Source of the DNA: Zeus faber
Taxonomy: Eukaryota; Chordata; Actinopteri; Zeiformes; Zeidae
DNA: 64,000 nucleotides
Direction: 5' to 3'
Assembly: GCA_960531495.1 (NCBI GenBank)
Contig: OY482849.1
Location: forward strand, 31,857,236 to 31,921,235
Shown: positions 10,239-32,286 of the stretch, one piece after another
Numbering within the stretch: position 1 is the stretch's first letter
Layout of the letters: each line of letters opens with the position of its first letter
Position numbers and translations under genes: made by a program
The notes under the pieces: model-generated
Told to the model about the DNA's origin: nothing
The model's input: the letters and a program-made list of their open reading frames with translations, nothing else
The model's database searches: none

Positions 10239-13200
10239 GTGAGGACACATTGTGTTTTGTTTATTTTTATTAGTACATTGTTTAAAAAAAAAAAAGGCTG
10301 TTAACCCTTTTTCATCATGAAAATAAAAACCCACTTATAATCCAATGAAATCTTAGTTTCCACTTTGGGAACATAGTTCACAGATTTGTACATATGTCCC
10401 CATTTCTGTGGCAAGAGGTCACAAACCAATGCAAAAAAATGTCTTTGTTTTTTTTTTTTTTTTACTTTGCGCTGCCAGTTTCCCAAAAAACATTGATGTT
10501 TAGCTTTGGCGTTTAACTAAAGGGGCTTGCTGTATTAAAATGTTATCAAACAGCACCTAGGAATCACACAAGCTGTAGGACGCAGTTTAATTACGAGTGG
10601 CATCCAGAGCTGGGCTCGGAAGTTCTCGTGTTGCTCGCAGAGTTGCAGAGTATGAGATCCTTAAAATACACTTAAAATAGTTGTTTCCCCGTGGTCTCGA
10701 ACACACAGTGGGCAAGGTGGACAATGGCTTGTTTTGTTGTGATCACTAGCTCATCCGGAAGGAAGGTGAATTCCAAGCTCCCCGCCTGCTTGACGAGAAG
10801 GAGATGAGGGCCAACGAGGACATGCAGCTGAAAAAAAAGAACAGGAAGTCAGGAACGCCCTGTAAAGTGAGAGAACAAGACGGAAGGGGAGGGAAGGTCA
10901 GTGGTAATGAATGTTTAAAAAAAGGGGGAAAGAAAATGGCTCTCGTTTCTGCCGTACAGGTCTGTTGTTTTCCTATCATGAATAAATGTGAATTTTCTCA
11001 TCAACGTACCCGTTTGTGGTGATATTTAACTTTTTTTTTCTCCCCCTTATGTTCGAATTGGAGGCTTTCATCTGGGTACATTTTTGGTGTGTGGGTGGGG
11101 GGAGGAGTTGAGAGAAGATGTGGAGGGGGCGGAGGATCTCTGGAGAGGAAGGGGGGAGGGGTGCAAGCGGAGAGGAGGACAATAACTGCAGTTGTGTGCA
11201 CAAGGGGGGAGTGAAACATGAGGGCATTAAGCCATTGGTGGGGATTCGGTCTCTTGTTTTTGAAATGAACACGTTTTATTACAAGTGTATTATTTTAGGT
11301 GTTTATGTAGATATATAGTTTTATTATCTAACAATCTCTATTGTTCATTCTCCTAATTTTTTTTTTTTAGTTCTTTTATTTTTTTTCTATTAGATTTTTT
11401 TTTTTTCAGGCGTTTAACTGCATCTATTCCTTTTTGTTAATATGCCATCTATGGTTTAAAATTTATTCATTAAATTAACCCAATTTTTTGTGATTTATTT
11501 ATTTTTCTAATTCAAATTTATCTTTTCCGGTCTTTTTTTTACAACCTGCCTTTAAAGGTTTTCTCTTTTTTATTTATTTATTTATTTATTTATTATTCCT
11601 CGATATTCATTTTAGTGTTATTCCACCTTTTATTCAGTTGTTTGGAAATTGACCCAAGGACCCTAGATTAAATAAAATAAAATAAAAATTACTTTTTATT
11701 TATTTCCAACCCTAGTGACATGAGATTGGGAGGTCGTGCTAGTTGTTTGCTTCACTGCTGTGTCATTTGTATGAGTTGCTAAAGCGCTGTTCTACGCTGC
11801 TCATTTTAGGGCCCGGGTGGAGATGAGAACGGTCCGTCATCCAAAGTGCAGAAAAACTTCATCTGCGACCACTGTTACGGCGCGTTCCGGAGCGGATATC
11901 ACCTGAAGAGACACATCCTCATTCACACAGGTATATGCCACGCTTGCAACCGCCCACTATCACGTCTCATCAATTTCACATGTCTGATAACGTTAATGGC
12001 ATTTGTAAACAAACACCCAGAGCTGGTTTCAGTCGGCCTGAATGTAGGCGTGCGCAGCAACTGTACGTTTTTTTTCAATGGCCTGCTTTTAAAGCGCTTC
12101 TTTGGTCGTAGCTTTTGCCTCACAGCTAATCGGTGGTATCTGTGGGGACCTTTTACTAAAACTGGTGCTCTTCGGTTTAGGGGAGAAGCCGTTTGCTTGT
12201 GCCATATGTGACATGAGGTTTATTCAGCGTTACCACCTGGAGAGACACAGCCTCATTCACACGGGTATGCGTCCTCTAACCGTACCCATATTACATAATC
12301 TTCCACTCGAACCAGTGGACAGCAAAAGGTTCTCAGGGTTTATTTCCTCTGTGGACAGTAATTTCCAACAAAGCGGATAGGTAACAAATGACCCTCAATG
12401 TAAAATGCAGGAGGTCTTTTCTATACATATGTCGGTCCCCCTAACACCAGTGACAATTTGAAAAGTGATGGTCTATCTGGGAAAAGCCTCACTGCACAGA
12501 TGGGCAGCACAAAGCAGCTGGTTGTTCAGTTGTATTTATTATTATTATATATTTTTTTCTTTCTTCTATTTTTTTGTATGGGTTTGTAAAGGAAGATCAA
12601 TGTATGGACATCAAAGGACTATACTACATATTGTCAAGTTGTCAAACTAATAAGTTTGACATATTGAAATAAATAATGAGCTTTTAGAACTTTACTAGGG
12701 CTGCAACTAACAGCTATTTGATGAATCTGTCTATTACTTTTGATTAACTAGTCACTCGGATAAAAACACAAACAAATGTTATTTCCATCATTTTATTAAA
12801 AAAGCAAACTGTTATTCCAAATTGACAATATTAACATAATTAACGGACCTAAATGTATGCTATAATAATTATGTGTACTTTATTAATCGCTATGGGGAAG
12901 TTGGTTCTCTGCATTTACCCATCCTCGTATCTGACGTATCTAGGAGCAGTGGGCTGCCACCCACGTGGCCTTGCCTGGGGAGCAGTTGGGGGGGTTAATT
13001 GTCTTGCTCAAAGACACTACAGCACTCTACCAACCCAGGATCGACCTAGCAATCTTCCGATCACCAGACACTTTTTTATTATTAAGTGAACAAAAACAGC
13101 GTTGTTTGAATTAAAATAATAATAATAATTAAAAAAAAAAGGTAAAACACAAACTAAGTGTGAACAGGCTTTGCTACATCGAATAGCTGTAGCAACAGGC

Positions 13201-32286: not shown

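Follow-up and report, generated by a model that had tools for sequence, protein, structure and literature searches.

In a 64,000-nucleotide stretch of the Zeus faber genome (contig OY482849.1 of assembly GCA_960531495.1; hereafter the window, in whose positions all coordinates are given), a gene that we read as the orthologue of znf740 carries 18 additional exons, each encoding a single C2H2 zinc finger, between the exon for finger 1 and the exon for finger 2. We favor the view that these exons (cassettes 1 to 18, numbered 5' to 3') form a protein-coding tandem array that is additive and adjustable by splicing, such that the number of cassettes included in an mRNA, rather than their identity, would be the variable. 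Taken jointly, these propositions have, in our estimate, a probability of roughly 0.55.

To delimit the array we scanned the window in all six frames with a loose C2H2 pattern, which yielded 20 finger units on the + strand, from 11864 to 31241. (Two other matches to this pattern, in a CV-repeat near 52940, and one at 22575 on the - strand did not look finger-like and were rejected.) When the 20 units were registered on their first cysteine, 18 exons were found between the finger-1 and finger-2 exons, and 18/18 passed a joint test: AG before, GT after, a length of exactly 84 nucleotides (nt), no stop codon and the arrangement C-X2-C-X12-H-X3-H. An earlier note on this DNA, made from the letters alone, had reported 18 extra single-finger exons of this length with these splice dinucleotides, none of them broken, and that description holds throughout. 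A glycine codon is interrupted at each end of every cassette: the two bases after the AG complete one such codon, and the final G before the GT opens the next, so that every cassette is of phase 1-1. Applied to 11931-31223 as a whole, the joint test picked out exactly these 18 exons on the + strand and nothing in either the - strand or 200 order-1 Markov surrogates. Consistent with these findings, a cassette profile run with nhmmer --max recovered the 18 cassettes, the finger-2 exon and the 3' end of the finger-1 exon, with the next match at E = 0.61, while blastn with 4 of the 18 cassettes as queries returned nothing further below E = 0.19; no decayed relic of a cassette was detected in the window by either search. 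Three of the 18 cassettes, scored against Pfam zf-C2H2 (PF00096) as single units of 28 amino acids, gave 24.0, 26.3 and 25.7 bits, two of the three lying above the cut-off of 25.2. The introns between cassettes measure 308-2423 nt, and the two outer introns 250 and 440 nt.

The identity of the gene is indicated by the exons on either side of the array. Using tblastn and a human ZNF740 query that was not taken from a database, we obtained matches to the finger-1 region (E = 3.5e-15) and to the finger-2 exon (E = 2.8e-9); the match of the same query to the probable N-terminal exon A was weak and by itself non-significant (E = 23), and the second half of finger 3 (3b) was located through a sequence motif. 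We take the intron positions of mammalian ZNF740 to match those of this gene, in which a further exon may lie upstream of exon A. Skipping of all cassettes gives an open frame of 247 amino acids with three fingers, and inclusion of all 18 gives a stop-free frame of 751 amino acids with 21 fingers, both lengths being counted from the first modelled exon rather than from a start codon. The exon that the earlier note had assigned to fingers 2 and 3 does encode finger 2; of finger 3 it encodes the first half only (3a), and the remainder lies in a separate exon downstream. With at most 21 finger units encoded, the three-finger total of ZNF740 is exceeded here. That total, which the earlier note had stated, agrees with the available part of a report in which three fingers are assigned to mouse Zfp740, human ZNF740 being identical over that part (PMC10632368).

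The additive view draws on the residues predicted to contact DNA. In the C2H2 helix numbering used here, the cassettes carry Q at -1 and R at +6 in 18/18, H at +3 in 17/18 and Y at +2 in 16/18, as in finger 2; the exceptions, one at +3 and two at +2, are identified in the table. The cassettes vary at -2 and +5, in the linker and at residues lying between the zinc ligands. Under the usual rules of C2H2 recognition, a finger with Q at -1, H at +3 and R at +6 reads GG followed by G or A, and this predicted reading matches the G-tract site of ZNF740. Judged from these residues, we infer that the cassettes differ in number and not in predicted specificity. The available parts of two reports describe repression of a reporter by mouse Zfp740 through the motif CCCCCCCAC (PMC10632368) and give the ZNF740 motif as MCCCCCCCAC (PMC7017286), both of which fit a GG-reading finger 2. 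In the mechanism that we propose, any number of cassettes could be spliced in with the frame kept, each supplying one finger with the same predicted recognition and about 3 bp of site; the gene would thereby make a family of G-tract binders with 3 to at most 21 fingers, whose finger count would set site length and affinity. Such an additive array is favored over a selector of the Dscam type because choosing among the cassettes would change little, whereas adding them would lengthen the site. We advance only tentatively the more specific idea of a DNA ruler set by splicing, in which 3 to about 21 fingers of the same specificity would set the length of site occupied on G/GGA tracts, and exon-limited gene conversion together with selection on contact residues would keep the units alike. 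(Note that a run of 25 G at 14969-14993, within the array, and a (GGA)n tract of about 12 copies at 33228-33263, after the stop codon, resemble the predicted binding sites; the window has nine G runs and four C runs of 10 or more, and such runs are likely due to chance.)

The sequence of the cassettes also points to how the array began. At sites where fingers 1 and 2 differ, all 18 cassettes resemble finger 2 toward the 5' end and finger 1 toward the 3' end. The pattern is clearest in cassette 1 (finger-2-like sites outnumber finger-1-like ones by 27 to 3 in the 5' part and are outnumbered by them, 1 to 10, in the 3' part; Fisher p = 2.6e-6) and weakest in cassette 13 (p = 0.0039), the 18 tests not being independent because the cassettes are related. 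The switch from finger 2 to finger 1 falls in the stretch TAYCACCTGRARAGACAC, which is common to both fingers. The earlier note had mentioned neither this chimeric pattern nor the frozen base contacts. These observations strongly support a founding cassette produced by unequal crossover of the finger-2 exon into the finger-1 exon at the shared TAYCACCTGRARAGACAC. The product would be a single-finger exon with the acceptor of finger 2, the donor of finger 1 and a symmetric phase, and would show clearly, at the molecular level, how a new exon can originate. Subsequent growth would have proceeded by duplication of exon plus intron, of which the block of cassettes 8-11, duplicated as 14-17, and the cassettes 12 and 13 are the clearest cases; the earlier proposal that exon and intron expanded together as one unit is supported.

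Divergence around the exons indicates when this growth took place. Of the 153 cassette pairs, 142 have upstream flanks no more alike than unrelated sequence. Between the blocks 8-11 and 14-17, 5 of 336 exon positions have changed (K 0.015), as have 392 of 1320 aligned intron positions (K 0.38), so that exon and intron divergence are decoupled by a factor of about 25; none of the 28 gap events in this alignment falls in exon columns. Divergence between the blocks increases outward from the exon, from 3/80 in the 20 nt after it and 6/100 in the 25 nt before it, through 12/100 at +21 to +60 and 37/156 at -26 to -65, to 334/884 elsewhere. Cassettes 12, 13 and 14 have related upstream flanks (K 0.08-0.14) and nearly unrelated downstream flanks (K 0.83-1.0), which places duplication breakpoints near the exons. 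By the measure of these flanks, the block duplication is not the youngest event, cassettes 12-14 being younger copies. As far as divergence can date it, the array is shown to be mostly old by the unrelated-looking upstream flanks of the 142 pairs together with the K of 0.38 in the block introns. With intron divergence of this order, the array would be expected to occur in more than one species. The earlier note had offered function or very recent origin as the reason that no cassette is broken: selection on the set is borne out, and recent origin of the whole is contradicted by the flanks.

Selection on the exons was estimated as omega, the ratio of nonsynonymous to synonymous change (dN/dS). 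The Nei-Gojobori method gave 0.14 when all 153 pairs were summed. A codon model gave omega 0.15 (support 0.1-0.2) for all 18 cassettes, with 2 delta lnL of 55.6 against omega 1, and omega 0.1, with 2 delta lnL of 53.6, for cassettes 1-7 and 18; results were unchanged by the three kappa values supplied, kappa evidently not having been fixed as intended, and IQ-TREE warned that parameter estimates may be inaccurate given so little data. Simulations of evolution without selection took cassette 18 as the starting sequence and a tree with an arbitrary root; all 18 cassettes stayed intact in 0 of 2000 runs at the observed rate, and likewise in 0 of 2000 at an assumed neutral rate (resting on an assumed factor of 0.355). 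By these estimates the exons, taken together, evolve under purifying selection, and the signal comes from the old cassettes 1-7 and 18.

A second process appears to act on the young cassettes (8-17). Young pairs whose upstream flanks look unrelated (mean p 0.53; unrelated sequence 0.56), 34 of 45, have a synonymous difference of 0.17, and old pairs with equally unrelated flanks, all 28 of them, one of 0.48; 3 of the 45 young pairs, with flank distances of 0.35-0.40, belong to neither class and are omitted from both means. In most old cassettes synonymous change is free (range 0.06-0.72), which makes a general synonymous constraint an unlikely cause of the similarity of cassettes 8-17. Probably, then, the exons of cassettes 8-17 have been homogenised by short-tract, exon-limited gene conversion. 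Such exon-restricted homogenisation helps to explain the clean look of these cassettes. (At the low extreme of synonymous difference, cassettes 1 and 18, at 12181-12264 and 30700-30783, the opposite ends of the array, are separated by 1 synonymous and 6 nonsynonymous changes, and their flanks look unrelated.)

Signals that might govern inclusion were sought in the splice sites and introns. Under the weights applied, donors scored 4.1-7.0 in the cassettes, 5.8 in the finger-1 exon and 12.6 in the finger-2/3a exon. Several cassette acceptors have UG-rich tracts, for example GCTCTGTGTG, and about 25 nt upstream of several cassettes a possible GCTAA-like branch point can be read by eye. A donor hairpin (GGGUA/UACCC) gave z from -0.9 to 2.0 over the 18 cassettes in a within-intron shuffle test. 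Pairing of the donor with a downstream element of the CGTACCC type ranked at or below 0.05 against 676 background windows in 7 of the 18 cassettes (1, 2, 9, 10, 15, 16 and 18), the constitutive donors of fingers 1 and 2 standing at 0.39 and 0.08 in the same test; a Fisher combination over 14 chosen cassettes gave p = 1.3e-5, the cassettes being related and the test having been picked after the sequence was viewed. We regard this putative element as a lead. A scan of the two outer introns and two control regions for a Dscam-type docking or selector site found none that was convincing in the outer introns (best tile mean z -1.33, with 8 of the 18 cassettes, against -1.03 in the control), and Rfam gave no match in the window at the gathering threshold.

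Several of these results weigh against the additive, splicing-adjustable view. Because 12 of the 18 cassette donors (6.0-7.0) are at least as strong as the constitutive finger-1 donor (5.8), the other six scoring 4.1-4.4, splice-site strength gives no sign of alternative use. The linkers are imperfect, with E changed to V in 17/18 and the preceding T changed to M in 6/18 and to S in 3/18, and long arrays with such linkers may bind DNA less strongly. The earlier note had suggested comparing dN/dS between cassettes, and the omega of about 0.1-0.2 obtained for all 18 does not extend to cassettes 8-17 alone, for which omega is 0.3 (support 0.15-1.0; 2 delta lnL 3.2) and neutrality is not rejected. 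Conversion, moreover, is read from the contrast between exons and flanks only, to which exon-sized duplication or a nucleotide-level constraint in 8-17 may be the alternative. Finally, IKZF1-edited T-cell clones, in the available part of the study, grouped by their number of DNA-binding fingers regardless of which fingers these were, a precedent for a count-based reading; the study itself points out that this differs from mouse exon deletions, in which single fingers had distinct though overlapping functions (PMC12896614).

The strength of 12 of the 18 cassette donors, the splice dinucleotides intact in 18/18 and the open frame with every cassette included would equally suit an array in which all or nearly all cassettes are always included, yielding a fixed protein of about 21 fingers whose exon structure is merely historical. 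We consider this rather unlikely, since the six weak donors (TGG/GTATG, 4.1-4.4) fall below those of the other scored exons (5.8-12.6) and an array that is never skipped would have cost the gene its ancestral three-finger function. At the other extreme, finger 1 might usually be spliced to finger 2, the cassettes being mostly skipped and weakly selected, with the young ones persisting through duplication and conversion; the failure of cassettes 8-17 alone to reject neutrality, and exons in 8-17 that look homogenised independently of their flanks, would be expected in that case. That view becomes distinctly unlikely in light of the omega of 0.1 in eight cassettes with unrelated-looking flanks, the absence of a stop or a lost ligand in all 18, and the lack of any relic; conversion alone, too, could hardly preserve the frame without selection on some copies. 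A tandem array of near-equal exons also recalls insect Dscam, where one cassette per mRNA would be chosen, here giving 18 four-finger isoforms, and the donor pairing in 7/18 cassettes means that RNA structure could regulate such a choice. We think mutual exclusion quite improbable: base contacts are common to the cassettes, so that a choice would alter little, array introns are all at least 250 nt long and no steric block is expected, double inclusion keeps the frame (all cassettes being 84 nt and phase 1-1), and a convincing common docking sequence was not found in the two outer introns scanned.

The earlier note had also raised the possibility of an assembly artefact, to which a collapsed tandem repeat may be added, and near-identical exons could indeed confuse a short-read assembly. 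Hardly any credence can be given to this explanation. The closest upstream flanks among 16 compared pairs, those of cassettes 12 and 13, still differ at K 0.076, the introns of the block pair differ at K 0.38, and one array intron holds a transposase-like open reading frame, which we take to be Tc1/mariner-like; with the intron differences, this insertion inside the array makes an artefact very unlikely. The array itself contains no N, the single N run in the window being a 200-N gap at 48801-49000, outside it. (The sequence past this gap may be joined by scaffolding only.)

Table 1 Exons of the znf740 orthologue and other features of the window
Feature	Position	Strand	Basis or remark
Probable znf740 N-terminal coding exon A	10056-10238	+	AG acceptor, donor CTG/GTGAGG, open frame by eye; weak tblastn match (E = 23)
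Probable coding exon B, lysine-rich	10750-10896	+	In frame between A and finger 1; splice dinucleotides and open frame only, by eye
Finger-1 exon, phase 0 to 1	11810-11930	+	C2H2 scan, tblastn, frame
Cassette 1, clearest finger-2/finger-1 chimera	12181-12264	+	Joint test
Cassette 2	14511-14594	+	Joint test
Cassette 3	15757-15840	+	Joint test
Cassette 4	16627-16710	+	Joint test
Cassette 5	17249-17332	+	Joint test
Cassette 6	17641-17724	+	Joint test
Cassette 7, sole cassette with Q at helix +3	18559-18642	+	Joint test
Cassette 8, start of the 8-11 block (duplicated as 14-17)	20217-20300	+	Joint test
Cassette 9	20670-20753	+	Joint test
Cassette 10	21149-21232	+	Joint test
Cassette 11	21663-21746	+	Joint test
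Cassette 12, cassette-8-type copy	24020-24103	+	Joint test
Cassette 13, cassette-8-type copy, D at +2	24806-24889	+	Joint test
Open reading frame of 237 amino acids	25513-26223	-	DDE_3 transposase match (E = 5.4e-8); intron between cassettes 13 and 14
Cassette 14, same exon sequence as cassette 8	27313-27396	+	Joint test
Cassette 15	27732-27815	+	Joint test
Cassette 16	28202-28285	+	Joint test
Cassette 17	28623-28706	+	Joint test
Cassette 18, N at +2	30700-30783	+	Joint test
Exon for finger 2 and first half of finger 3 (3a)	31224-31342	+	Strong donor CAG/GTAAGT
Exon for second half of finger 3 (3b) and C-terminus	32113-32286	+	Stop codon 32284-32286
UDG superfamily match, below cut-off	38739-39335		Probably neighbouring gene
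SKICH (below cut-off)/CALCOCO1 match	41648-43060		Probably neighbouring gene
Nuclear hormone receptor ligand-binding domain match	50819-51505		Probably neighbouring gene

The surroundings of the gene were surveyed through 10 open reading frames downstream, of which two gave matches above the Pfam cut-off, CALCOCO1 (E = 1.5e-10) and a nuclear-receptor ligand-binding domain (E = 1.9e-5); matches to UDG (0.0012), SKICH (0.0015) and the EED insertion domain (0.0059) fell below it, and 5/10 had no Pfam match. In humans SMUG1, CALCOCO1 and RARG presumably lie in the same 12q13 region, a neighbourhood that would fit the identity of the gene as znf740. The window also contains a minisatellite in which a 16-nt unit recurs about 102 times (45623-47253) and an imperfect GTT/GTG-rich repeat with strong strand skew (36302-36943).

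Among the open-licence PubMed Central papers listed in searches aimed at the array, we found no description of it; one may exist elsewhere or in database annotation, and automated annotation of related fish may already list multi-finger znf740 models. A zebrafish paper, in its available part, mentions znf740b only within gene lists, and a PDB sequence search returned nothing named ZNF740 among the 60 of 112 matches listed. A viral contig collection gave two pattern matches and no confirmed relative; in a genome contig collection 2 of 39 candidate stretches encode finger proteins (47% and 36% identity), in records titled as bacterial metagenome-assembled genomes.

Zinc-finger genes are usually thought to gain specificity by within-exon duplication of fingers and change of their contact residues. 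In KRAB-ZNF and PRDM9 arrays, whole C2H2 fingers are duplicated and homogenised within one exon while base contacts diversify; the znf740 array shares the duplication and homogenisation of fingers, and differs in having one exon for each added finger and frozen contacts. Finger number has thus grown here by exon duplication rather than by the usual within-exon route, and because the contacts stayed frozen while the number grew, the array offers a natural test of the effect of finger number alone. In titin-like genes, protein length depends on how many of the numerous short in-phase exons enter the mRNA, those of titin changing elasticity; the in-phase repeated exons are alike, and here each unit is a DNA-reading finger. 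We know of no other combination of many one-finger exons with constant specificity, and if the cassettes are spliced in variable numbers, the array would to our knowledge rank with the largest arrays of internal coding exons in any vertebrate transcription factor.

Its separate elements do have precedents, as the available parts of the sources describe them, in tandem exon arrays (PMC1397879) and in splicing-variable finger number (PMC12896614). Mammalian ZNF740/Zfp740 shares the sequence of fingers 1, 2 and 3 and is the same backbone gene, and the available text describes no extra finger exons (PMC10632368), as against 18 here. Ikaros (IKZF1) likewise has its fingers on separate in-frame exons and alters their number by splicing, varying, in the text available, among 2-4 non-identical fingers (PMC12896614), whereas znf740 of Zeus faber has up to 18 near-identical exons formed by tandem duplication. 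Insect Dscam and vertebrate Pcdh are similar in having tens of tandem paralogous exons in one gene; the accessible part of a survey holds that the Dscam array presumably arose by tandem exon duplication, and that, as of 2006, human arrays of at most three variants had been seen and few large ones were known, such as Pcdh with up to 22 (PMC1397879). The exons of Dscam, however, are mutually exclusive and diversified, whereas the cassettes described here are in phase, jointly includable and near-uniform at their contact residues.

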